A DNA stretch of 64,000 nt, taken from the NCBI RefSeq assembly GCF_025666195.1, contig NZ_CP102592.1, positions 2,108,001 to 2,172,000 on the forward strand, written 5' to 3'. Below the pieces are notes generated by a model. That model ran no database searches. It worked only from the letters and a program-made list of their open reading frames with translations, and was not told the origin of the DNA. The DNA is from Xanthomonas sp. CFBP 8443 (lineage in GTDB: Bacteria; Pseudomonadota; Gammaproteobacteria; Xanthomonadales; Xanthomonadaceae). Positions 48,104 to 59,479 of this stretch are shown in pieces. Within the stretch, counting starts at the first letter, position 1. Each line of letters starts with the position of its first letter. Position numbers and translations under genes: made by a program.

Positions 48104-48190
48104 TGGTGCCCGGAGCCGGAATCGAACCGGCATGGGGTCGCCCCCGGCGGATTTTAAGTCCGATGCGTCTACCAGTTTCGCCATCCGGGC
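48104..48190 (-). tRNA. tRNA-Leu (TAA)
   Basis: An 87 nt class II tRNA with acceptor GCCCGGA/TCCGGGC, anticodon loop CTTAAAA (TAA), a long variable arm (CCGGGGGCGACCCC region), T-loop GTTCGATTC and a 3' CCA. In E. coli the Gly-Cys-Leu tRNAs lie together after pgsA; here the Leu gene lies 3.9 kb beyond the Gly copy. Confidence 0.96.
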
Positions 48191-48334
48191 CTGGTGCCGC
48201 TAGCCTGCCTGATTGCGTCCGAATTGTGAACCGCGCACGTCGTCGCCGCGCTACATGGCGCGGGTGAACGTCCCCGATTGGCGTGGATCTTGCCGAAAGG
48301 AACCCGAAAGACAGCCCACCTAGGCTCTGCGCGA

Positions 48335-49045
48335 ATGAGCCGGAGAGCCGCCTTGCGCGTCCAGTGGAAGATTCTTTGCGATTTCGACGGCACCGTGTCG
48401 CTGCAGGACGTGACCGATACCTTGCTCGAGCGCCTCGGCCGCCCCGGCTGGCGCGCGCTGGAGGACGATTGGGTGGCCGGGCGCATCGGCGCGCGCGCGT
48501 GCATGAGCGGCCAGGTGGCGCTGCTCGATGGCGACGTGGACGCGCTGCACCGCGTGCTCGACGACGTGCGCATCGATCCGGCGTTCGTGCGCTTCGTCGA
48601 CCTGGCGCGCGATCTCGGCATGCCGCTGAGCATCGTCAGCGACGGCCTGGACTATCCGATCGCGCGGATCCTGGCGCGGCACGGCCTGCACCAGCTGCCG
48701 ATCGTCGCCAACCGCCTGCTGCGCACCGAGGCCGGGCATTGGCGCTTGGCCTCGCCGCACGCGCGGCCGGACTGCGCCAGCGGCACCTGCAAGTGCGCGG
48801 TCATGGCGCAACAGCAACCGGCGCGCTCCACGCTGCTGATCGGCGACGGTCGCTCCGATTTCTGCGTGGCCGGCAAGGCCGATCTGGTGTTCGCCAAGGA
48901 CGGCCTGCTGCGGCATTGCCGCGCCAGCGGCATCGCCCACCACGCGATCGGCGGCTTCGACGATGCGATCGCGCTGCTGCACGAGCTCGCCGCGCCCGCC
49001 GCGGCGGCCGCGCGCCTCCCTCTCCCCGTTCCCCAACGAGCCTGA
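48335..49045 (+). CDS. HAD-IB family phosphatase, MtnX-like
   Basis: A 236-residue HAD-superfamily hydrolase. Motif I is ILCDFDGTVSLQDVTD near residue 12, motif II is SIVSDGLDYPI near 100, and motif III is LLIGDGRSDFCVAGKADLVF near 170. The Cys-rich stretch RPDCASGTCKCAVM near 150 resembles MtnX-type phosphatases. The aminotransferase gene starts 5 nt later, so both belong to one operon. In this context it may dephosphorylate an intermediate of an unknown product. Confidence 0.88.
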   Translation: MSRRAALRVQWKILCDFDGTVSLQDVTDTLLERLGRPGWRALEDDWVAGRIGARACMSGQVALLDGDVDALHRVLDDVRIDPAFVRFVDLARDLGMPLSIVSDGLDYPIARILARHGLHQLPIVANRLLRTEAGHWRLASPHARPDCASGTCKCAVMAQQQPARSTLLIGDGRSDFCVAGKADLVFAKDGLLRHCRASGIAHHAIGGFDDAIALLHELAAPAAAAARLPLPVPQRA

Positions 49046-49050
49046 TCCTC

Positions 49051-50568
49051 ATGAATCGGAATGTTCCGCTCCCCACGGCGCTCGCGCCGCTCCACGGCGA
49101 TCTCGACACGCTCGACGCTCCAGAGCACGCCAGCCCGCAGCCGGCGGCGCCGGATCCCGACGCGCTGCTGCGTACCGGCCCCGCCTACCACGCCGCCCTC
49201 GGCGATGCGCAACTGCTGGCCGACGAGGCCGAATACTGCTCGTTCGGCGACACCGTGCACTACAGCGAACCGCCGCGGATCTTCGCGCACTGCGACGGCA
49301 GCTATCTGTACGACACCGAGGAGGTGCCGTACCTGGACCTGCAGATGTGGTATTCGGCGGTCAACTTCGGCTACGCCAATCCGCGCTTGAACGGCGCGCT
49401 GAAGCGACAGATCGACAGCCTGCCGCAGGTCGCCAGCCAGTACCTGCACCCGACCAAGATCGAGCTGGCCAGGACCATCGCCCAGGACGCGCAGCGCAAG
49501 TGGGGGCGCAAGGGCAGGGTGCATTTCAACGTCGGCGGCGCGCAGGCGGTGGAGGACTCGCTGAAGCTGGTGCGCAACGCCAGCGGCGGCAAGAGCCTGG
49601 TGTTCGCGTTCGAGGGCGGCTATCACGGCCGCACTCTCGGTGCTTCGGCGATCACCTCCTCGTACCGCTATCGGCGCCGCTTCGGCCATTTCGACCGCGC
49701 CCAGTTCATCGAATTCCCGTACCACTTCCGTGGCCCCAAGGGCATTTCCAAGGAGGAATACGGCGAGCAGTGCGTGGCCAGATTCGAACGCCTGTTCGAG
49801 ACCGAGTACAACGGCGTGTGGGATCCCAAGGCCGGGCAGTGCGAGTACGCCGCGTTCTATGTCGAGCCGATCCAGGGCACCGGCGGCTACGTGATTCCGC
49901 CGCCGAACTTCTTCACCGGCCTGAAGCGGGTGCTGGACAAGTACGGCATCCTGCTGGTGGTCGACGAGATCCAGATGGGTTTCTTCCGCACCGGCAAGCT
50001 GTGGGCGATCGAGCACTTCGGGGTGACCCCGGACGTGCTGGTGTTCGGCAAGGCGCTGACCAACGGCCTCAATCCGTTGGCCGGGATCTGGGCGCGCGAG
50101 GAACTGATCAACCCGACCGTGTTCCCGCCGGGTTCGACCCATTCCACCTTCGCCTCCAACCCGCTCGGCACCGCGGTGGGCCTGGAGACCATGCGCATGC
50201 TGGCCGAGACCGACTACGAAACCATGGTCATGGCCAAGGGCGCGCATTTCCTCGACGGCCTGCGCGACCTGCGGAAGCGCCATCCGGAAATCGGCGACGT
50301 CGACGGCCTGGGCCTGGCGCTGCGCGCGGAGATCTGCCAGGCGGACGGCTTCACCCCGAACCGCAAGCTGCTCGACACGATGGTGGACATGGGCCTGGAG
50401 GGCGAGCTGCGCCACAACGGCAAGCGCATCGGCCTGGTGCTGGACGTGGGCGGCTACCACAAGAACGTGATCACGCTGGCGCCGTCGCTGCACATCAGCC
50501 ATGACGAGATCGACCTGGGACTGTCGCTGCTGGACCAGTTGCTGACCCGCGCCAAGCGGGTGGCATGA
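49051..50568 (+). CDS. Class III pyridoxal-phosphate aminotransferase
   Basis: A 505-residue PLP enzyme of the ornithine/diaminobutyrate aminotransferase class. VHFNVGGAQAVEDSLKLVRN near residue 158, VVDEIQMGFFRTG near 305 and the PLP lysine in LVFGKALTNGLNP near 333 are intact. The first 80 or so residues are an extra N-terminal region. It follows the HAD phosphatase by 5 nt and converges with the ketosynthase gene, with only 61 nt between. The substrate is unknown; an amino-group transfer in a lipid- or polyamine-like product is possible. Confidence 0.9.
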   Translation: MNRNVPLPTALAPLHGDLDTLDAPEHASPQPAAPDPDALLRTGPAYHAALGDAQLLADEAEYCSFGDTVHYSEPPRIFAHCDGSYLYDTEEVPYLDLQMWYSAVNFGYANPRLNGALKRQIDSLPQVASQYLHPTKIELARTIAQDAQRKWGRKGRVHFNVGGAQAVEDSLKLVRNASGGKSLVFAFEGGYHGRTLGASAITSSYRYRRRFGHFDRAQFIEFPYHFRGPKGISKEEYGEQCVARFERLFETEYNGVWDPKAGQCEYAAFYVEPIQGTGGYVIPPPNFFTGLKRVLDKYGILLVVDEIQMGFFRTGKLWAIEHFGVTPDVLVFGKALTNGLNPLAGIWAREELINPTVFPPGSTHSTFASNPLGTAVGLETMRMLAETDYETMVMAKGAHFLDGLRDLRKRHPEIGDVDGLGLALRAEICQADGFTPNRKLLDTMVDMGLEGELRHNGKRIGLVLDVGGYHKNVITLAPSLHISHDEIDLGLSLLDQLLTRAKRVA

Positions 50569-50629
50569 GATGGCGGGAGACAGCGCGTTGGCGCCGCGTT
50601 GCCTCCCGTTCTTCGCCGCGGCGCGCGCG

Positions 50630-51865
50630 TCAGTCCGCCGCGCGCAGCGCCAGTACCGCGTTGAGTCCGCCGAAGGCGAAGGAATTGCTGAGCACCGCGC
50701 GCACCGCCTGCGCGCGGGCGTGGTTGGGCACGTAGTCCAGGTCGCACTCCGGATCGGCATCGAGGAAGTTCGCGGTCGGCGGCACCGTCTGCTCGCGCAG
50801 CGCGCCGATCGCCGCGACCAGCTCCAGCGCGCCGGCGGCGCCGAGCGCGTGGCCATGCACCGCCTTGGTCGAACTCACCGCCAGCGCATCGGCGTGCGCG
50901 CCGAATACCTGGCGGATCGCCTGCGTCTCACCGCGATCGTTGGCAAGGGTGCCGGTGCCGTGGGCGTTGATGTAGTCGATCTGCTGCGGTTGCAGCCCCG
51001 CGTCCTGCAGCGCCAGGCGCATCGCCGCGGCGGCGCCGTCGGCACTGGGCGCGACGATGTCGTGCGCATCGGCGCCCAGGCCGACGCCGGCCAGTTCCGC
51101 CAGCGCCACCGCGCCGCGCGCAGCCGCGTGCGCGGCGCTTTCCAGCACGAAGATGCCGGCGCCTTCGCCCAGCACCAGGCCGCTGCGTTGCGCGCAGAAC
51201 GGCCGGCAGGTGTCGTCGCTGACCACCCGCATCGCCTCCCAGGCGCGGATCAGCGGCAGGCTCAGGCAGGCTTCGCTGCCGCCGGCGATGGCGACATCGG
51301 CCAGGCCGTGGCGGATCAGCAGCGCCGCCTGCGCCAGCGCGTGGTTGGCCGAGGCGCAGGCGCTGGACACGGCGAAGGCCGGGCCGCGCAGGCCGAAGGC
51401 GATGCTGATCTGGCTCACCGGAGCGTTGTTCATGCTGCGCACGATGGTCAGCGGATGCAGGCGTTCGGTCTGCTCGCGGTACAGCCGCCGCGATTGTTCG
51501 TCGCGGCTGAGTTCGGCGCCGACGCCGGTGCCGATCACCACCGCCGCGCGTGCGGCGCCTGCACCGTCCAGCGCCAGGCCGGACTGGGCCATGGCCTCGC
51601 AGGCCGCGACCAGCGCCATCTGCGTCATGCGGTCCAGCTGGCCCGGCGCGATGCCGCCCAGCTGCGCCGCTTGCGGCGCGAAACCGGGCACGGCGGCGGC
51701 CACGCGCATCTTCAGCGCGGACTGCGGATCGGGCGATGCCAGCGCGGCGATGCCGCTGCGGCCCTCGCACATGCCGCGCCACAGCGCATGGGCGCCCAGG
51801 CCGAGCGCGCTGACCGCGCCCATCCCGGTGACGACGACGCGACGTCCCTGCGCCGAGCGCGCCAT
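50630..51865 (-). CDS. Beta-ketoacyl-ACP synthase (FabF-like)
   Basis: A 411-residue condensing enzyme with a complete catalytic triad: C170 in AVSSACASANHAL, H302 in NAHGTGT, and H339 in STKAVHGHALGAAG. It lies 6 nt after a dedicated acyl carrier protein gene, so it likely elongates an acyl chain on that carrier rather than serving housekeeping fatty acid synthesis. It belongs to the uncharacterised cluster at 48335-57130. Confidence 0.92.
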   Translation of the reverse strand: MARSAQGRRVVVTGMGAVSALGLGAHALWRGMCEGRSGIAALASPDPQSALKMRVAAAVPGFAPQAAQLGGIAPGQLDRMTQMALVAACEAMAQSGLALDGAGAARAAVVIGTGVGAELSRDEQSRRLYREQTERLHPLTIVRSMNNAPVSQISIAFGLRGPAFAVSSACASANHALAQAALLIRHGLADVAIAGGSEACLSLPLIRAWEAMRVVSDDTCRPFCAQRSGLVLGEGAGIFVLESAAHAAARGAVALAELAGVGLGADAHDIVAPSADGAAAAMRLALQDAGLQPQQIDYINAHGTGTLANDRGETQAIRQVFGAHADALAVSSTKAVHGHALGAAGALELVAAIGALREQTVPPTANFLDADPECDLDYVPNHARAQAVRAVLSNSFAFGGLNAVLALRAAD

Positions 51866-51871
51866 GCCGGC

Positions 51872-52147
51872 TCAGTGCGCCGCGGCGAGCGACGCGGCGG
51901 CGGCCTTGGCGGCCAGCGCCTGCCGCACCGCCTCGCTCAGCTTGCCCAGCGAGCCGTCGTCCAGGTTCGGGTCGCGCTGCGGGAAGGTGATGTCGAAGTG
52001 CTCTTCGATGTCGAACAGGATCTCGATCGCCTCCAGCGAATCCACACCCAGGTCCTGCAGCTTGGTGCCCGCGGTCAGGCCGGCGGGATCGATCTCCGCG
52101 TGATTGGCGACGATGCTGTGGATCTGGGTCTCGATAGACGGGGTCAT
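51872..52147 (-). CDS. Acyl carrier protein
   Basis: A 91-residue carrier with the phosphopantetheine serine S37 in DLGVDSLEAIEILF. It is the first gene of the minus-strand pair, 6 nt before the ketosynthase. Its sequence and C-terminal Ala-rich tail differ from a housekeeping AcpP, which points to a pathway-specific carrier. A divergent promoter region of about 110 nt separates it from the acyltransferase gene. Confidence 0.93.
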   Translation of the reverse strand: MTPSIETQIHSIVANHAEIDPAGLTAGTKLQDLGVDSLEAIEILFDIEEHFDITFPQRDPNLDDGSLGKLSEAVRQALAAKAAAASLAAAH

Positions 52148-52260
52148 GGCAGTCCTCCGCGAAATGAAAGGCCACCGTGCGGCGCGTGCCGGCGGTGGAA
52201 GGCACGCCGCGGCCCATGGCTGCGGCGTCCATCCTCCACGCTAGCCGGCCAATCTTGCAG

Positions 52261-53331
52261 ATGCCTTTCGTAAGCCAACTCGAACCGCAGGCGCTGCTGC
52301 GGCAGTTCCTGGCCCATCCGCCGCAGGCCTTCGTGGCGCGCGCGCTGGAGCATGGCGTGCCGGCGTTCGAGGCCGAGTTCGACCTGCTCACCACCGCCGA
52401 CCCCGCGTTGCGCGCGCGCGTCGCCGGCTGGCCGCTGCAGCGGCTGTGGCGGCGCCTGCTGCGGCCGCGCACCAGCTTCGTCGGCAGCACCGTCAGCGAA
52501 TACGCCTGGCTGCCGCGTGCGGCCGATCCGGCGCAGTTGCCCAGGCAGTGGCGCGCGCAGCTGGGGCGACGGCAGCCGTTGCTGATCGTCAAGGACATCC
52601 CGCAGCGCTCGCCGCTGCTCGACGCCACCGACAACGCCTGGGCGCACGTGTTCCTGCAGGCCTGCGAACGCAGCGGCTACGTGCTGCTGCGCGGACAGGC
52701 GCTGGCCTGGGTGCCGATCGATTTCGCCTCCACCGACGAGTACCTGGCGCGGCTGTCGCGCGGCCGCCGCCGCAACATCCGCCGCAAGCTGCGCTCGCGC
52801 GCCGATCTGGACGTGCAGATGCTGCCGACCGGCGCCGCCTTCGCCGATCCGGCGCTGCGCGCGCAGTGCTATGCGCTGTACCTGCAGGTCTACGCGCAGA
52901 GCGAGGTGCACTTCGACCTGCTGACCGCCGCATTCTTCGATGCGCTGCTGACCGATGCGGACGCGGGCGGCCTGGTATTCACCTATCGGCACCAGGGCCG
53001 GTTGATCGGCTGGAACCTGTGCTACGTGCACGCCGGGCGGCTGCTGGACAAGTACATCGGCCTGCACTATCCGGACGCGCGCGCGCACAACCTGTACGCG
53101 CTGAGCTGGATGCACAACCTGGACTACGCCTGCCGCCATGGCCTGCGCGCCTACGTCGCCGGCTGGACCGATCCGCAGGTGAAGGCGCAACTCGGCGCCA
53201 GCTTCACCTACACCTGGCATGCGGTGTACCTGCGCAATCCGCTGCTGCGCATCGCGTTGCGGCGGCTGCGGCCGCTGTTCGAAGCCGACGCCGTCGCTGT
53301 CGCCGAGCCCGACGACGATGCGGCGCCATGA
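52261..53331 (+). CDS. FemAB/GNAT-like acyltransferase
   Basis: A 356-residue protein of the GNAT/FemAB-like family, often annotated as a peptidogalycan biosynthesis protein. A basic helix RLSRGRRRNIRRKLRSRADL lies near residue 163. LVFTYRHQGRLIGWNLCYVH lies near 240, and LHYPDARAHNLYALSWMH lies near 270, the typical second half of the fold. The ATG at 52261 is chosen; 52216 is possible. The next gene starts 2 nt after its stop. It may transfer the ACP-bound acyl chain to an amine. Confidence 0.78.
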   Translation: MPFVSQLEPQALLRQFLAHPPQAFVARALEHGVPAFEAEFDLLTTADPALRARVAGWPLQRLWRRLLRPRTSFVGSTVSEYAWLPRAADPAQLPRQWRAQLGRRQPLLIVKDIPQRSPLLDATDNAWAHVFLQACERSGYVLLRGQALAWVPIDFASTDEYLARLSRGRRRNIRRKLRSRADLDVQMLPTGAAFADPALRAQCYALYLQVYAQSEVHFDLLTAAFFDALLTDADAGGLVFTYRHQGRLIGWNLCYVHAGRLLDKYIGLHYPDARAHNLYALSWMHNLDYACRHGLRAYVAGWTDPQVKAQLGASFTYTWHAVYLRNPLLRIALRRLRPLFEADAVAVAEPDDDAAP

Positions 53332-53332
53332 C

Positions 53333-54214
53333 ATGAGCGCACCGGTGGTGCTGGACCTGGATGGATCGCTTGGCGCATTGCCGGGCGCGCTGCGGCTGCC
53401 GCTGCAGCCGTGGTGCGACGGACTGCGCTTCGCCTGTTCGTTGCGCCGGCTACGCCGCTTCGGCACTGCGCTCGACGGCATGCTGCCGGCGCAGCACGGC
53501 ACCGTGCTGCTCGGCAGCGGCGATTTCCACCACCTGAGCCTGCCGCTGATCGCGCGGCTGGCGCGGCGGGCGCAGGCGCCGCTGCGGGTGGTGGTGTTCG
53601 ACAACCACCCGGACAACATGCGCTTCCCGTTCGCGGTGCATTGCGGTTCGTGGGTGTGGCGGGTGGCGGCGCTGCCGCAGGTGACGCAAGTGGACGTTGT
53701 CGGCATCACCTCGGGCGATGTCGGCGCCGCGCACGCCTGGGAGAACCATCTGCGGCCGCTGTACCGCGGCACGCTGCGCTACTGGTGCAGCGGCGTCGAC
53801 GTCGGCTGGGCGCGGCGGCTGGGACTGGGTCGCGCGGTGCGCGGCTTCGGCTCGAGCATGGAGATGATCGACGCCTTCCTGCAGCACCTGCGCAGTACGC
53901 CGATGCCGACCTACCTGTCGCTGGACAAGGACGTGCTGGATCCGCAGGACGCGCGCACCAACTGGGACCAGGGCGAGCTGCGGGTGCCGCACCTGCTCAC
54001 CGCGATCGCTTACCTGCACGGGCAACTGCTCGGCAGCGACATCACCGGCGAGGTGTCCGAAGCGCGCTATCCGCAATGGTGGAAGCGGCGGCTGGCGGCG
54101 CTGGATGCGCAACCGCCGCCTTCGCCGCAGGCGCTGCCGGCGTGGCAGGCGCAGCAGCACGAAGTGAATCTGCGGCTGCTGGAGGCGCTGGCGGAGGCGG
54201 GGTTGCCGCGGTAG
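53333..54214 (+). CDS. Ureohydrolase-fold (arginase-like) protein, divergent
   Basis: A 293-residue protein with the metal-binding pattern of the arginase/agmatinase fold: GSGDFHH (H66/H67), DNHPDN (D90, H92, D94) and SLDKDVLDP (D198, D200). The motifs vary from the usual GGDHS, DAHxD and SxDxDxxDP, so a different substrate is likely. It is separated by 1 nt from the FemAB-like gene. In the cluster it could hydrolyse a guanidino or amide bond and release an amine. Confidence 0.8.
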   Translation: MSAPVVLDLDGSLGALPGALRLPLQPWCDGLRFACSLRRLRRFGTALDGMLPAQHGTVLLGSGDFHHLSLPLIARLARRAQAPLRVVVFDNHPDNMRFPFAVHCGSWVWRVAALPQVTQVDVVGITSGDVGAAHAWENHLRPLYRGTLRYWCSGVDVGWARRLGLGRAVRGFGSSMEMIDAFLQHLRSTPMPTYLSLDKDVLDPQDARTNWDQGELRVPHLLTAIAYLHGQLLGSDITGEVSEARYPQWWKRRLAALDAQPPPSPQALPAWQAQQHEVNLRLLEALAEAGLPR

Positions 54215-54251
54215 CGCATGCTCGACGCTGGTCTACGCAAAAGCGGAGCCC

Positions 54252-54319
54252 TGTAGGAGCGGCTTCAGCCGCGACGGGCTTTACCGATAGATCCTGTCGC
54301 GGCTGAAGCCGCTCCTACA
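54252..54319. repeat. REP pair, GGCTTCAGCC family
   Basis: TGTAGGAGCGGCTTCAGCCG at its left end and the reverse complement CGGCTGAAGCCGCTCCTACA at its right end enclose about 28 nt. It lies between the convergent ureohydrolase-like and DegT genes. Confidence 0.88.
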
Positions 54320-54350
54320 GAATCGCGCAGGGTGCGACATTCTTGCTGCA

Positions 54351-55556
54351 TCAGCCCATCCGCTCCGCACACACCAGCCGCAGCACAGCGACGATCGCCT
54401 CGAACCCATCTTCGTCCAGCCACGGGCTGTTGCTGATGCTCAGGCAGCGCGCGGCGAAGTCGCGCGCGTTGGGCATCGGCGCGGCATCGACGATGTCGCG
54501 CAGGTAGGCGTAGTCGGGCAGGGCGTGCACGAACAGCAGGCCGACGCCGAGCCCACGCGGCCACAGCCGCGCCAGCGCGCGTTCGCGTGCGGCCGCGTCC
54601 GGCAGCAGCACCAGCAGCGCCGGCCAGCTGCCCTGCGCACCGGGGCTGTCGGCGACGACGCGCAGCCCGGCGATCGCGGCCAGGCGCGCGGCGCGGCGCA
54701 GGCCCTGCGCGCGCGCCTGCGCCAGGAACGCCGGCCAGCGCGCACTGGCCCGCGCACCGACGGCTTCGCGCCAGGCGCCGACCGCGTGTTGCGGGATCGC
54801 CGCATCGAACTGGTCGCCGGCCGCGGCCACACGGTCGCCGCGGCGCAGCGCGCGGCGCAGCGGCATGCCGTAGGCCCAGCGCAAGGCGCGCGGCCGGTAC
54901 AGCGCGGCATAGCCCAGCAACTGCAGGCTGCGCTGCAGTTCCCGGCGCCAGTCCGGCTGGCCCAGGCGTGCTGCGGTGGCGGCCAGGCTGCGCCGCAACG
55001 GTGCATGGCGCGACAGCAGCAGGCCGCCTTCGTACAGGGTCGGGCCCTTGCCCACCGCCAGGCTGCAGAAGCCGATGTCGCCGCCCAGGCCGGCCGGGGT
55101 GCCATCGGCATGCACGCCGCCCAGCGCCTGCGCGGCGTCCTCGATCAGCATCGCGCCGCAGGCCGCGGCGGCGGCGCGCAGCGGGGCCAGGTCGGTCAGG
55201 CGGCCGCCCAGGTGGGTGGCGACGATCGCCAGGGTGTCGTTGCCGCACCGCTGCGCCAGCTGCGCCGGGTCCGGTTCGATCGCATCGGGCAATAGATCGC
55301 ACAGCACCAGCTGCAGGCCGCAGTGGGCCACCGCCAGCGCCACCAGCGGACAGGTGTAGGCGGCCACCAGCACCTGCCGGCGGCGGCTGCTCGCGGCCAG
55401 GGTGCGCAGCGCGACGACCAGCGCGGCGGTGCCGGAGCAGGTCAGCAGCGCGTCGGGCAGGCCGAGTTGCGCGGCCAGCCGTTGCGGTGCGCGCGCCGGC
55501 CACAGGTCGCGCCAGCGCAGCGGCAGGCCGGCGGTGGGCGGAACCTCAGTGCGCAT
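54351..55556 (-). CDS. DegT/DnrJ/EryC1/StrS-type aminotransferase
   Basis: A 401-residue PLP aminotransferase of the sugar-aminotransferase superfamily. The cofactor region LIEDAAQALGGVHADG lies near residue 157 and the Schiff-base lysine lies in SLAVGKGPTLYEGGLLL near 190. It is the last gene of a minus-strand operon with two SMR transporter genes and an alpha/beta hydrolase gene; its start overlaps the second transporter by 11 nt. The product is unknown. Confidence 0.85.
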   Translation of the reverse strand: MRTEVPPTAGLPLRWRDLWPARAPQRLAAQLGLPDALLTCSGTAALVVALRTLAASSRRRQVLVAAYTCPLVALAVAHCGLQLVLCDLLPDAIEPDPAQLAQRCGNDTLAIVATHLGGRLTDLAPLRAAAAACGAMLIEDAAQALGGVHADGTPAGLGGDIGFCSLAVGKGPTLYEGGLLLSRHAPLRRSLAATAARLGQPDWRRELQRSLQLLGYAALYRPRALRWAYGMPLRRALRRGDRVAAAGDQFDAAIPQHAVGAWREAVGARASARWPAFLAQARAQGLRRAARLAAIAGLRVVADSPGAQGSWPALLVLLPDAAARERALARLWPRGLGVGLLFVHALPDYAYLRDIVDAAPMPNARDFAARCLSISNSPWLDEDGFEAIVAVLRLVCAERMG

Positions 55557-55944
55557 CGGCCGGGGCGGTGCGCTCGCCGAGCGCGAGGCAGGCGATGCCG
55601 GCCACGATCAGCACCGCGCCGAGCACCTGCACCATGCCGATCGGTTCGCCGAACCACCACGCCGACAGCAGCAGTACGCTGACCACTTCCAGGTGCGAGG
55701 CGGCGAACGCCGGCCCGATCGGCGCGTGCTCGAGCAGTTTCATCCAGGTGAAGAACGCGCCGACATAGCCCAGCAGCGCGGCGTACAGCCAGGGGCTGGC
55801 GAGCAGACGCAGCAGCCAGGCCCACTCGGCCTGCGGCGGCAACGCGTGCGCGCCGCCGAGCTTGAAGCCGATCTGGGCCAGGGTGTCGAAACCCAGCAAC
55901 AGGGCGAAACCGATGGCGTAGCGCTGCAGCGGCGGCCGGCTCAT
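55546..55944 (-). CDS. SMR/DMT-type four-helix transporter, subunit 2
   Basis: A 132-residue protein with four membrane helices, comparable to small multidrug resistance and ArnE/ArnF-like proteins (IGFALLLGFDTLAQIGFKLG at the start; LEVVSVLLLSAWWFGEPIG near 90). The stop overlaps the DegT start and the start overlaps the sister gene by 4 nt. It likely forms a heterodimer with that sister and exports a cluster product or substrate. Confidence 0.82.
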   Translation of the reverse strand: MSRPPLQRYAIGFALLLGFDTLAQIGFKLGGAHALPPQAEWAWLLRLLASPWLYAALLGYVGAFFTWMKLLEHAPIGPAFAASHLEVVSVLLLSAWWFGEPIGMVQVLGAVLIVAGIACLALGERTAPADAH

Positions 55945-56303
55945 GTGCCGAGCCCGACCACGGCCACGCCGGCGCTGACCAGGCAGATCCCGGCCACCTG
56001 CATGCGTCCCAGCCGTTCGCCGAACAGCCAGCGCCCGGCGAGCATGATCGCCACGATGTTGATCGAGCCCAGCAGCACGCCGCGACCCAGCGGCACCAGC
56101 GACAGGAACGCGGTCCAGGCCAGGAATTCGAACGCGTAGCAGCCCATGCCCAGCCACAGCCACGGCTGCCGCGCCATGCGCCGCCAGCGCGCCGCGCCGC
56201 TCGCCAGCGGGTCGCTGGCGACGTGCTTGAAGGCCAGTTGGCCTACCGTGTCCAGCGCCACCGTCGCCAGCCACACGCCGACCGCCGGCGCCTGCAGCGC
56301 CAT
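55941..56303 (-). CDS. SMR/DMT-type four-helix transporter, subunit 1
   Basis: A 120-residue four-helix protein (VGVWLATVALDTVGQLAFKH at the start; GRGVLLGSINIVAIMLAGRW near 75). It is coupled on both sides: its ATG overlaps the hydrolase stop, and its stop overlaps the sister transporter start. Pairs of short SMR genes usually act as one antiparallel transporter. Confidence 0.82.
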   Translation of the reverse strand: MALQAPAVGVWLATVALDTVGQLAFKHVASDPLASGAARWRRMARQPWLWLGMGCYAFEFLAWTAFLSLVPLGRGVLLGSINIVAIMLAGRWLFGERLGRMQVAGICLVSAGVAVVGLGT

Positions 56304-57130
56304 CAGGCGGCCTGGCGCGGCGCCGCGGCCTGCGCGGCGAAGAACTGCGCCAGGCGCGCGCCGAGCAGGCGGCGTTCGCGGTCCAGTGTGATCATGTGGT
56401 AGCTGTCGTGCAGCAGCAGCAGTTCCACCGGCCCGGACACGCCGGCCACCACCAGCTGCGCGTTGCGCAGATGCGCGATGTCGTCCTCGGCCGCGTGCGC
56501 GACCAGGCACGGCGCGGTCACCTTGGCCAGGTTGCGCCGTACCCGCCGCGACAGCAGGTGCATCTCGGCCAGCGCGTGCCACGGATTGCCGGGCAGGCCG
56601 GCGGCGCTGCTGTCGCCGCCGAGCATCGCGCCGCTGATCTGCGCGCGGATGCGCTCGTCGCGCAGGCCGTACGGCGGTTCTTCCAGGAACATGCGGCGGC
56701 GGCCGATGCCCAGCCGCTTGAACCACGGCAGCAGGAACGCCAGCCGCGCGCGCCGCGGGATGTTCCAGCCGTCGTAGCGGAAGGTGGCGCCGAGTACGCC
56801 GACGCCGTCGATCCACTCCGGCCGCTCTTCGGCCAGTTGCAGCGCCAGCAGCGCACCCATCGACAGCCCGGCCACGAACAGTTTGTCCACCTGCGGACGC
56901 ATCCGCGCCGCGGCCTGTTCGACGCTGGCGGACCAGTCGCGCCAGCCGGTCGCGAGCAGGTCGTCCTCGTCGCCGCAATGCCCGGCCAGTTGCACGCCGT
57001 GCACGCTGAAGCCCTCGCGGTGCAGGCACTTGCCGAGCAGGCGCATCTCGCTGGGAGTGCCGGTCAGGCCGTGGATCAGCAGCACGCCGTGGCGGCCGCC
57101 CTGGAAGTGGAATTCGGCGGATCGGATCAT
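56303..57130 (-). CDS. Alpha/beta hydrolase, carboxylesterase/lipase-like
   Basis: A 275-residue hydrolase of the Est30-like type. The oxyanion segment GVLLIHGLTGTPSEMRLLG is at residue 15, the nucleophile S90 is in VAGLSMGALLALQL, an acid lies in AHAAEDDIAHL near 213, and the His is in HDSYHMITLDRE near 245. No signal peptide is seen. It is the first gene of the minus-strand unit. A role in releasing or trimming an acylated product fits the cluster, but this is inference. Confidence 0.86.
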   Translation of the reverse strand: MIRSAEFHFQGGRHGVLLIHGLTGTPSEMRLLGKCLHREGFSVHGVQLAGHCGDEDDLLATGWRDWSASVEQAAARMRPQVDKLFVAGLSMGALLALQLAEERPEWIDGVGVLGATFRYDGWNIPRRARLAFLLPWFKRLGIGRRRMFLEEPPYGLRDERIRAQISGAMLGGDSSAAGLPGNPWHALAEMHLLSRRVRRNLAKVTAPCLVAHAAEDDIAHLRNAQLVVAGVSGPVELLLLHDSYHMITLDRERRLLGARLAQFFAAQAAAPRQAA

Positions 57131-57350
57131 GGCGTCACGGTGCGGGGGACTGGGGATCGCGCGCAGCGTGGCGCGGATGCGTTTCAGCAGCCTTTCCGGT
57201 CAGCGTGGCGCCGCGGCCGGGTTGCGGAAGCGCACCCAGCACGCGCTGGCCCAGGCGCAGCGCCGACGGCTGCCGGAACGCCAGCACGCAGGCCACGCTC
57301 GGTCGTTGCCGTTGCCGTTGCCGTCGGCGGCGTCGTGCAACTGCGCCGGC

Positions 57351-58775
57351 TCATGCCGGCGGCGCCGCACTGCCCGGCAGGTCCAGTTCCACGCGCAGGC
57401 CGCCCAGCGCCGAGCGCTGGTAGCGCAGGGTGGCGTGGTGGCGCGCGGCGATGTTGGCGACGATCGCCAGGCCCAGGCCGGTGCCGCCTTCGGGCGCGTC
57501 CGGGGCGCGGAAGAAGCGTTCGCCCAGGCGCGGCAGCAGCGCGTCGTCCAGCCCCGGGCCGGCATCGTCGATCGCCAGTCGCAGCTGCCGCGGCATGCGC
57601 CGCAGGCTCACCGTGACCATGCTGCCGGCGGCGTGCTTGAAGGCGTTGTCGAGCAGGTTGTCGAGCAGTTCGCGCAGCGACCAGGCATCCGCCTCGACCC
57701 AGGCCGGTTCGCTGCCGGCGTCGTCGTAGCCGAGGTCGACCCCGGCCAGCAGCGCGTCGGGAATGCGTTCGGCCAGCGCCTGCGGCAGCCACACGGCCAG
57801 GTCCAGCGGCAGCAGCGGGCGGATGCTCTCGCGCGGCGCCTGCGCGCGGGTCAGCGCCAGCAGCTGGGTGGAACTGCGGATCGCGCGGTCGGTCAGTTGG
57901 CGGATGTGCTGCAGCGCCTGCGCGGTGTCCTGCGCGCGGGTGCTGGCCTGGGCGCGCTGCACGTGCATGCTGAGTCCGGCCAGCGGCGTGCGCAGCTGGT
58001 GCGCGGCGTCGGCGACGAAGCGCTCCTGCAAGGCCATCAACTGCTTGAGCCGGCCGAGCAGGCCGTCGATGGCCTGGGTCAGCGGCAGCACCTCGATCGG
58101 GATGTCCGGGCCGGACACCGGGCTGAGATCGCGCTGGCTGTCGTCGAGCCGGCGCACCGCCGGCTGCAGCAGGCGCAGGCCCACGCGCACGCCATGCCAG
58201 ACCAGCGCCAGCAACGAGCAGGTCAGCAGCAGTTCGATCGGCAGCATCAGCATCAGGATCTCGCGCGCGCGGCGGTGGCGGTCGTCCAGGGTCTCGGCCA
58301 CCGAGATCGTCAGCCGGTCGCGGGTCTCCCACGCCGACGGCACGATCAGGCTGGCCACGCGCACGGGGGTGCCGTCGGCCATGCGTTCGTCGCGCAGTGC
58401 GACCCGGCCGAGCGTGGCGGGGGCGGCATGCGCCGGGATCGGCTGCGCGCTGTTGCTGATCACGCCGTGGTCGCGGCTGCGCACCTCGAAGAACACCCGG
58501 CCGTCGCTGCTGTATTCGAGCAGGCGCCGCGCCTGCAGCGGCAGCGGCAGGCTGGCGCCGGCGTCGTTGACCGCCTTGGCCAGGCCCAGCGTGTCCTCCT
58601 TCAGGTCCATGTCGTGGACGTGGTTGGAGTAGGTGAGCATCAGCAGGTAGAACAGCGCCGAGACCACCAGCATCAGCAGCAGGGTCGGGATCAGCAGGAA
58701 CGCCAGCAGGCGCCGGCGCAGGCTGGGATGGGCGGGAACCGCGCCCGCCGCCGCGGCTGCCGCGGCCGCGCTCAC
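57351..58775 (-). CDS. Sensor histidine kinase, TctE/QseC-like
   Basis: A 474-residue kinase with a first membrane helix near 22-48, a periplasmic domain (about 50-165), a second helix near 172-192 and a HAMP-like linker. The H-box is FVADAAHQLRTPLAGLSMH near 250, the N-box LLDNLLDNAFKHA near 362, and the G-boxes are DDAGPGL and GGTGLGLAIV. The GTG start at 58775 overlaps the regulator stop (GTGA). The signal is unknown; the carbohydrate-porin/fructose genes next door suggest a nutrient. Confidence 0.9.
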   Translation of the reverse strand: MSAAAAAAAAGAVPAHPSLRRRLLAFLLIPTLLLMLVVSALFYLLMLTYSNHVHDMDLKEDTLGLAKAVNDAGASLPLPLQARRLLEYSSDGRVFFEVRSRDHGVISNSAQPIPAHAAPATLGRVALRDERMADGTPVRVASLIVPSAWETRDRLTISVAETLDDRHRRAREILMLMLPIELLLTCSLLALVWHGVRVGLRLLQPAVRRLDDSQRDLSPVSGPDIPIEVLPLTQAIDGLLGRLKQLMALQERFVADAAHQLRTPLAGLSMHVQRAQASTRAQDTAQALQHIRQLTDRAIRSSTQLLALTRAQAPRESIRPLLPLDLAVWLPQALAERIPDALLAGVDLGYDDAGSEPAWVEADAWSLRELLDNLLDNAFKHAAGSMVTVSLRRMPRQLRLAIDDAGPGLDDALLPRLGERFFRAPDAPEGGTGLGLAIVANIAARHHATLRYQRSALGGLRVELDLPGSAAPPA

Positions 58776-59479
58776 GACGCGTGCGGGGCGTGGGCGGCGT
58801 CGGCGTCGGCGTCGCGGGATTCTTCCAGCAGGTAGCCCAGGCCGCGGATGGTGCGGATGCCGACCCCGGAGCCGTGCAGCTTGCGGCGCAGGCGGTGCAT
58901 GGAGATGTCCAGGCCGTTGTCGGTGATCTCGTGCTGCCAGTCGCACAGCGCATCGGTGAGCTGGCCGCGGCTGACCACGCGCCCGCTGCGCAGCAGCAGC
59001 GTCTCCAGCAGCGCGAACTCGCGCGCGGTCAGCTCCAGCGGCTGGTCCTGCAGCCACACCCGGCGCCCGGCCAGGTTGATCCGCAGTTGGCCCAGGGCCA
59101 TTTCCGGGATGCCGCCGCTGCTGCGCCGACGCAGCAGGGCGCGGGTGCGGGCCAAAAACTCGGACAGTTCGAACGGCTTGATCAGGTAGTCGTCGGCGCC
59201 CTGGTCGAGGGCGCGGATCCTGTCCTCCACGCCGTCGCGCGCGGTCACCACCAGCACCGCGACCTCGTCGCGGCGTTCGCGCACGCGCTGCAGCACCTGC
59301 AGGCCGTCGCGCCGCGGCAGGCCCAGGTCCAGCACCAACAGGTGGTAGGACTCGGCGCTGAGCGCGCGCTCGGCGGCGGCGCCATCGTTGACGTGGTCCA
59401 CCACGTGCCCGCACTCGGCCAGCGAGTCGCGCAGGGCGATGGCAATGGACGTGTCGTCTTCGGCAACCAGAATGCGCAT
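58772..59479 (-). CDS. Response regulator, OmpR/PhoB family
   Basis: A 235-residue regulator. The receiver domain has acidic residues E7/D8, phospho-acceptor D51 in LVLDLGLPRRDG and lysine in DDYLIKPFELSEFL near 100. The winged-helix domain follows with LELTAREFALLETLLLRSGR and the DNA-binding segment LDISMHRLRRKLHG. Its C-terminus has a short Asp/Ala-rich tail. It is co-transcribed with the sensor kinase. Confidence 0.94.
   Translation of the reverse strand: MRILVAEDDTSIAIALRDSLAECGHVVDHVNDGAAAERALSAESYHLLVLDLGLPRRDGLQVLQRVRERRDEVAVLVVTARDGVEDRIRALDQGADDYLIKPFELSEFLARTRALLRRRSSGGIPEMALGQLRINLAGRRVWLQDQPLELTAREFALLETLLLRSGRVVSRGQLTDALCDWQHEITDNGLDISMHRLRRKLHGSGVGIRTIRGLGYLLEESRDADADAAHAPHAS

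Follow-up and report, generated by a model that had tools for sequence, protein, structure and literature searches.

Ten genes at positions 48335..57130 of a 64,000-nucleotide stretch of the genome of Xanthomonas sp. CFBP 8443 (contig NZ_CP102592.1, positions 2,108,001 to 2,172,000; hereafter the window) form one evolutionary unit, and two of the four tight units into which they fall carry the same cluster-specific DNA element. The genes, labelled here by their products, encode a haloacid dehalogenase-type phosphatase (HAD), a class III aminotransferase-fold enzyme (AT3), a ketosynthase (KS), an acyl carrier protein (ACP), a FemAB-like acyltransferase (FEM), an arginase-fold metallohydrolase (ARG), a DegT-type aminotransferase (DEG), two small multidrug resistance half-transporters (SMRa and SMRb) and an alpha/beta hydrolase (ABH). 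The system to which they belong is real, widespread and co-regulated. We propose that it is a two-component-regulated system for the synthesis and export of an acylated amine (amino-lipid), a proposal that in our judgement is evenly balanced between right and wrong. The first-pass annotation of this DNA had described a single uncharacterised synthesis and export cluster for such a product, which fits the evidence, the genes being co-conserved; the lipid-amine identity of the product is the part that we infer, and an amino-lipid is likely. The same annotation had left room for a match to a characterised pathway. None was found in the profile libraries or the literature searched, and no description of the cluster was found in the open-licence PubMed Central literature, judged by titles and abstract openings. 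For bacteria commonly associated with plants and soil, these results suggest an envelope or secreted metabolite that is as yet unassigned, the system being found in genera that include Xanthomonas, Lysobacter, Rhodanobacter, Dyella, Delftia, Agrobacterium and Rhizobium. Its DNA element, its core genes and a natural enzyme replacement make it directly testable in non-pathogens.

Co-occurrence and range of the cluster genes

In a sample of 100 relatives, including the 5.24-Mb genome of CFBP 8443 itself (20 genomes of the genus and 80 from outside it), ARG is present in 24 genomes, AT3 in 25 and DEG in 23, and these sets are nested. Nineteen of the 20 Xanthomonas genomes carry all three genes and the remaining one lacks all three, while outside the genus ARG is found in 5, AT3 in 6 and DEG in 4 genomes. 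AT3 is present in every genome with ARG; G021, the additional genome with AT3, carries at that locus the exporter described below, ABH, the SMR pair, ACP, KS, AT3, HAD and the two-component genes, with no FEM, ARG or DEG there.

Relatives of ARG were also sought in 84,980 species genomes, which yielded 417 stretches; the best 80 of the 417 were used as named loci, and counts from them are skewed to close relatives. Flanks are full in 62 of these loci and shortened in 18. Gene presence at each locus was scored by tblastn with self-chosen bit thresholds, and genes in the fetched loci were called with our own script, which misses some, such as AT3 in L149 and ARG in L093. All ten genes occur together in 39 of the 80 named loci and in 35 of the 62 with full flanks. 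FEM and ARG are adjacent on one strand, within 300 bases, in all 80; the same spacing is kept by HAD and AT3 in 47 of the 49 loci with both genes and by KS and ACP in 66 of 66. The larger arrangement varies: Frateuria has inverted units, Dokdonella and Delftia have a changed unit order, and in seven Dyella genomes AT3 lies apart from FEM–ARG. In the one Dyella genome that was read out, the separate AT3 sits with HAD, the exporter and the two-component genes. An arrangement that recurs with its units inverted, re-ordered or split over two loci, and is nevertheless retained, goes beyond chance, and inheritance of position alone is an insufficient explanation for it. Scattering of the genes in close relatives, or units that are never co-conserved, which the first-pass annotation had considered as possible outcomes, mostly did not occur, the split in Dyella being the departure.

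The range is wider than the Xanthomonadaceae to which that annotation pointed, reaching Agrobacterium, Rhizobium and Delftia. ARG is rare in a sample of the class (3 of 321 genomes, one of them our own and another, G205, a weak match that was set aside as no cluster surrounds it). AT3 was found in 26 of 398 genomes of the phylum at E 1e-100, our own included, 25 of them with at least 68% identity, and in 12 of the 20 such loci that were read out, which include members of the same family or order, HAD, AT3 and ABH occur together by our gene calls, often with ARG, FEM and SMR genes as well. Plasmids of Agrobacterium fabrum and Rhizobium acidisoli share the order HAD, AT3, ARG, SMR, ABH, FEM, SMR. 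The A. fabrum cluster also carries the exporter, and that of R. acidisoli (L163:12670-17238) encloses a fatty-acid desaturase and ends with a cyclopropane synthase. In Agrobacterium, Rhizobium and Delftia this core usually stands without a KS–ACP pair nearby. A cluster-type KS (at least 50% identity) was detected in 4 of 17 AT3-bearing genomes tested, a set chosen largely because no KS had been seen near AT3 (the genomes of L146, L148 and L160, with KS or ACP near AT3, lie outside it); the other 13 have only copies of at most 43% identity. The private ACP and ketosynthase stressed in the first-pass annotation thus look like an accessory addition rather than part of the constant core.

Some variants of the locus were recorded alongside these counts. 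Genome G043 (L037 and L201) carries a divergent version in which KS, ACP and ABH are close, SMR, FEM and ARG are about 30-36% identical, DEG was not found and AT3–HAD lie elsewhere on the same contig. Relatives of Pigmentiphaga have two large adjacent genes near FEM (L093:10824-15646, also L102, L103 and L118) that resemble cyanophycin synthetases. In Xanthomonas sacchari R1 (L164) the cluster, with hemN and truncated-haemoglobin neighbours as in the window, is part of a 509-kb record labelled as a plasmid; that record may be a misassembled part of the chromosome.

The direct repeat, the lost exporter and the locus

The DNA element was spotted by eye in aligned HAD upstream regions and then counted. 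It is a direct repeat, GAAAG-N6-GNAAG-N9-CTA, with an 11-bp period, and is conserved across genera. In its strict form the repeat precedes 49 of 52 HAD genes when the window is counted; without the window, it precedes 11 of 62 ABH genes and 1 of 542 other genes. With the half-site relaxed to GNAAG and upstream stretches shorter than 200 bases dropped, it was found upstream of HAD at 50 of 52 loci (40 with the CTA), of ABH at 11 of 63 and of other genes in 5 of 550 cases. The relaxed half-site was chosen after the ACP copy had been seen, which makes the ACP counts post hoc: 48 of 55 where ACP is divergent from FEM and 2 of 11 in other arrangements, the site being absent in six Frateuria-type loci where ACP and KS follow AT3 on the same strand. 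Sites before ABH are confined to loci where a non-cluster gene precedes it (11 of 20), with none at the 39 loci where the membrane-fusion protein (MFP) gene of the exporter does so. No relaxed repeat was found upstream of AT3, KS, FEM, ARG, DEG, SMR, exporter or two-component genes. Five shuffled replicates, in which only base composition was kept, gave 0 matches. Within the CFBP 8443 genome, a search allowing one mismatch returned two matches, at 48295 and 52242, both in the cluster, and a reversed-pattern control returned one; it is therefore the places of the matches that are informative, and not their number.

The response regulator encoded beyond ABH (Table 1) is presumed to be the reader of this element, from its location and from the 11-bp period, which would suit a regulator of the OmpR/PhoB family. 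The element is present at distant loci with QseBC-type neighbours (L156 and L157) and absent from L153, which has an NtrC-type regulator by NCBIfam, and from similar loci.

In many relatives, genes for an adaptor, an ATPase, an FtsX-type permease and an outer-membrane factor lie between ABH and the two-component system, and this exporter is intact at the same place in 17 of 18 cluster-bearing congeners. The first-pass annotation had drawn the boundary of the cluster too tightly, as in many relatives the system also comprises this DevBCA-like exporter and the two-component genes. In the window the two-component system is kept and the exporter is reduced to a 63-base remnant; positions 57131-57350 are the scar left where the four genes between ABH and QseC were deleted. 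In the congener G013 (L187) there is a similar loss, with a longer remnant. A search of the rest of the CFBP 8443 genome, run with no positive control, did not find the exporter permease, and this lineage may have lost the outer export step or may rely on another pump. Across the named loci the permease is present in 45 of 80. The best NCBIfam model for the ATPase is DevA, and DevC is the only match of the permease at E 1e-10, while HlyD is the best model for the adaptor and DevB the fifth. For the Lysobacter copy, scores fall below the Dev cut-offs (DevB 44.2 of 129, DevA 210 of 295.8 and DevC 68.9 of 290.35 bits). According to PMC5985334, DevBCA exports glycolipids together with a TolC homologue.

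All ten open reading frames were found on the stated strands, and the four tight units of the first-pass annotation and their spacings were confirmed. Gaps of 5, 6 and 1 nt separate HAD from AT3, KS from ACP and FEM from ARG, respectively, and overlaps of 1, 4 and 11 nt join ABH to SMRa, SMRa to SMRb and SMRb to DEG. Its family assignments, for which it had suggested profile searches, were upheld by Pfam and NCBIfam. The ATG at 48335 is not conserved as a start of HAD, since four other Xanthomonas have ATT, ACT, ATC and ATC at that place; the TTG at 48353 gives a gene of 693 bp, which is also its annotated length in X. sacchari. The conserved start of FEM is the ATG at 52261. A tRNA-Leu gene at 48104-48190, about 105 bp 5' of the first copy of the element, may mark an old insertion boundary, and an inverted repeat (GTAGGAGCGGCTTCAGCCGCGAC and its complement, at about 54256-54332) between the convergent ARG and DEG is perhaps a terminator or resembles a repetitive extragenic palindromic (REP) sequence.

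Table 1. Features of the cluster and its surroundings (window coordinates)
Feature	Coordinates	Strand	Basis or remark
Element copy 1, GAAAG-N6-GAAAG-N9-CTA, 5' of HAD	48295..48322	+	Sole exact match in own genome
HAD: HAD-IB phosphatase, MtnX-like; likely start TTG 48353	48353..49045	+	TIGR01489, 94.5 bits (cut-off 81.55)
AT3: class III aminotransferase-fold pyridoxal phosphate (PLP) enzyme	49051..50568	+	PF00202
KS: FabF-like ketosynthase, own clade	50630..51865	-	PRK07314, 404.8 bits (cut-off 387)
ACP	51872..52147	-	PF00550
Element copy 2, one mismatch; points to ACP, overlaps FEM start	52242..52269	-	Pattern search of own genome
FEM: FemAB-like/GNAT acyltransferase	52261..53331	+	PF04339; conserved start
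ARG: divergent arginase-fold metallohydrolase	53333..54214	+	PF00491
DEG: DegT-type PLP aminotransferase	54351..55556	-	PF01041
SMRb: EamA/SMR half-transporter, ArnF-like	55546..55944	-	Pfam and NCBIfam
SMRa: EamA/SMR half-transporter, ArnE-like	55941..56303	-	Pfam and NCBIfam
ABH: alpha/beta hydrolase, nearest a monoacylglycerol lipase	56303..57130	-	7e0n, E 5.2e-29
Remnant of MFP of the lost exporter	57237..57299	-	86% identity over 7% of MFP
QseC/PmrB-like sensor kinase	57351..58775	-	Best NCBIfam model QseC, 146.7 of 475 bits; conserved neighbour
TctD/PmrA/QseB-like response regulator; presumed reader of the element	58772..59479	-	NCBIfam

Enzymes, head group and alternative readings

The catalytic residues of KS, ACP, AT3, DEG, HAD, ABH and ARG are conserved among orthologues with few exceptions, bearing out the intact active sites reported in the first-pass annotation. 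Orthologues are called near when they come from the named loci and far when they come from distant or other loci, a split made by our own score thresholds. The Cys-His-His and Lys site of KS is complete in 66 of 66 near orthologues, and among five far ones Cys is present in four, with one gap, and both His and Lys in all five; Ser37 of ACP is present in 65 of 65 near and 4 of 4 far, and the PLP-binding Lys170 of DEG in 64 of 64 and 6 of 6. In ARG the DxHxD and DxD motifs are kept in 75 of 75 near and 12 of 12 far copies, and the HH motif (GDH) in 75 of 75 and in 11 of 12, with one gap. The exceptions include N-terminal gaps in HAD (5 of 52 near and 4 of 19 far) and a single replacement of the catalytic Ser of ABH by Cys among 16 far copies. 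Several of the enzymes stand apart from their named relatives. KS is below the fabF equivalog cut-off (419.3 of 493.75 bits) and reaches only the subfamily model PRK07314; it is 41% identical to its best-scoring paralogue in its own genome and shares 50-72% identity with the cluster-type KS found in four further genomes. ARG does not reach the equivalog cut-off for a known ureohydrolase (agmatinase, 16.9 of 174.3 bits). HAD is below the MtnX equivalog (76.2 of 303.2 bits) and reaches the broader MtnX-like subfamily cut-off, MtnX being its only solved relative at E 0.001. Both SMR halves have an acidic residue in the first transmembrane helix: Asp20 of SMRb in 66 of 66 near copies (8 Asp and 2 Glu among 10 far), and Asp18 of SMRa in 65 of 66 near, with one gap (10 Asp and 2 Glu among 13 far). 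EmrE has an essential Glu in its first membrane helix, where these residues lie, and an acidic residue there would suit an amine cargo.

The chemistry of the head group is approached most directly through the partnership of HAD with a class III enzyme. Four genomes without AT3 have a paralogue resembling glutamate-1-semialdehyde (GSA) aminomutase adjoining HAD (in Dokdonella-type genomes at L101:18227-19576 and L091:18815-20203); G803 and G804, which also lack AT3, lie outside this comparison. Each of the four also has a housekeeping-type copy, 42-45% identical and with no HAD beside it, and none of six housekeeping-type loci, covered for up to 1.5 kb on either side, has HAD. Two AT3-bearing genomes have a single GSA-aminomutase-like copy at E 1e-80. 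The reading of the replacement as an ordinary HemL was rejected, given the second HemL-like gene without HAD in each genome and a score of 440.2 of 527.3 bits with the hemL model. A natural replacement beside HAD suggests a shared reaction, in which the compound undergoing PLP chemistry is also dephosphorylated by HAD at one stage or another. By alignment to 7vno, all 81 AT3 orthologues have Thr277 and Thr475 where related enzymes have a Glu/Arg pair, which points to an unusual donor or substrate. This pair, Glu211/Arg398 in gamma-aminobutyrate (GABA) aminotransferase numbering, usually handles glutamate in this fold. Serinol made from dihydroxyacetone phosphate is the single head group that we would favour, as a guess that is doubtful in itself. 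RtxA of Bradyrhizobium aminates dihydroxyacetone phosphate to serinol phosphate with a preference for glutamate (PMC3222319), human transaminases form serinol from dihydroxyacetone phosphate as a slow side reaction (PMC9283133), and in the Campylobacter jejuni capsule (S)-serinol phosphate is coupled before a separate phosphatase strips the phosphate (PMC13276843).

A pathway can be proposed in which (1) AT3 and HAD would make a small amino-alcohol head, most plausibly with a phosphorylated ketone being aminated and the phosphate removed before or after acylation; (2) FEM would link a fatty acyl group to the amine, the acyl chain being supplied by primary metabolism or, among many Xanthomonadales, by the private ACP–KS; (3) ARG and ABH, together with DEG where it is present, may trim or remodel the product by C–N hydrolysis, by ester hydrolysis on a monoacylglycerol-like skeleton and by a further amination; (4) the two SMR proteins, each with a conserved membrane carboxylate, would flip the cationic lipid over the inner membrane; (5) the DevBCA-like pump and the outer-membrane channel would export it, a step missing in CFBP 8443; and (6) the neighbouring two-component system would turn the units on through the direct repeat. 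The similarity of ABH to monoacylglycerol lipase would agree reasonably well with a glycerol-like amine. In R. acidisoli, the two lipid-modifying enzymes (desaturase and cyclopropane synthase) point to acyl chains and support a lipid product. The products could constitute a new class of lipids, N-acylated amino-alcohol lipids such as acyl-serinols, the amine analogues of monoacylglycerols, made without non-ribosomal peptide synthetases or sphingolipid enzymes by a portable HAD, class III, FemAB and arginase-fold core, flipped by SMR proteins, exported by a DevBCA-like pump and placed under two-component control in alpha-, beta- and gammaproteobacteria; this extension is tentative, and we think it rather unlikely.

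Several observations weigh against the proposed amino-lipid system. AT3 without the Glu/Arg pair fits poorly to a glutamate-fed serinol route, FEM has no significant solved relative (best E 0.79), and one far copy of SMRa has Gly at the acidic position. On the regulatory side, no repeat lies upstream of QseB itself (0 of 32), L141 has a QseB-like regulator yet no repeat before HAD, and seven Dyella loci lack the ACP site (six with divergent ACP and one in another arrangement), Dyella accounting for six of the seven site-less divergent ACP genes. FEM–ARG occurs without AT3 in Rudaea and is also found with no further cluster gene closer than 10 kb. DegT and KS–ACP are absent near many clusters outside Xanthomonadales, and the permease is present in just 39 of the 62 named loci with full flanks; with these components so patchy, there is no universal ten- or fourteen-gene pathway. 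Finally, the loss of the exporter in CFBP 8443 suggests that the pathway may be decaying in this strain.

Part of the same evidence can be read otherwise. The arginase fold suggests guanidino chemistry, and according to PMC5985334 MacB-type pumps export pyoverdine as well, so the product might instead be a small secreted molecule other than a lipid (a siderophore-like, guanidino or polyamine compound), with FEM as an N-acetyl or N-aminoacyl transferase and a MacB-type pump for export. This reading is unlikely, as ACP, KS, the lipase-like ABH and the two lipid-modifying enzymes of the Rhizobium cluster all point to acyl chains. Less likely still is a route to beta-amino fatty acids, in which AT3 would aminate the beta-ketoacyl-ACP formed by KS and ACP, and the beta-amino acyl product would be released and exported. 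The class III domain of mycosubtilin synthase aminates a beta-ketoacyl chain in this way, the enzyme that replaces AT3 matches a mycosubtilin synthase chain (6kfm, E 1.3e-56), and KS, ACP and AT3 occur together in many Xanthomonadales and a few distant loci. However, this route leaves the constant HAD partner unexplained, and the 13 of 17 AT3-bearing genomes in which no cluster-type KS was found speak against it, with the reservation that this set was picked largely for AT3 surroundings lacking KS. An Arn-like change of the envelope is improbable: DegT would aminate a carrier-linked sugar, the ArnE/F-like SMR pair would flip it, and PmrAB-like control would alter surface charge. DegT does abut the SMR pair, the matches to ArnE and ArnF are weak and that of the regulator to PmrA is below cut-off, but DegT is absent near many clusters, the ten genes include no glycosyltransferase, and an outer-membrane exporter would be superfluous. 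That there is no single pathway, and that independent operons are held close by a common envelope-stress regulon, accounts for units that are separately inverted, moved or lost but is highly improbable in view of the nested co-occurrence, the retention of both halves in Dyella and an element matched in the own genome only at cluster genes.

Comparison with known systems

Two groups of candidates were set aside on comparison. A link to exosortase and PEP-CTERM systems rested on matches below cut-off (ABH 24.2 of 202.75 bits and a distant response regulator 406.6 of 502.6), and no marker enzyme of sphingolipid, ornithine-lipid or aryl-polyene clusters is encoded by the ten genes or by those common neighbours that could be labelled. 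With the FemAB/GNAT acyltransferases, FEM shares the Pfam domain PF04339, with no NCBIfam match and no significant solved relative. The serinol modules of RtxA and of the C. jejuni capsule are likened to AT3–HAD by the reactions described for them, and serinol in C. jejuni enters sugar amides rather than lipids.

The Arn pathway shares with the cluster a DegT aminotransferase beside two SMR halves and PmrAB-like regulators nearby. All three Arn proteins, however, are matched below the equivalog cut-off (ArnB 47.2 of 631, ArnE 26.6 of 92 and ArnF 29.2 of 99 bits), the acidic residue in the first transmembrane helix is a feature of both SMR halves here, and the ten genes contain no sugar pathway: neither in them nor in the 15 neighbour families seen in at least 34 loci was a glycosyltransferase or UDP-sugar gene found, rarer families being mostly unlabelled.

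The closest parallel for export is in Anabaena, where the DevBCA–TolC/HgdD exporter serves the heterocyst glycolipid and has its lipid synthesis genes. It has in common with the present system an adaptor, a single ATPase, a DevC/MacB-like permease and an outer-membrane channel beside lipid genes, a set that 17 of the 18 cluster-bearing congeners, but not the window, encode together. It differs in that no Dev cut-off is reached and that KS and ACP are free-standing here, and the aminotransferases, the arginase fold, FEM and the SMR pair are new partners for an exporter of this type.

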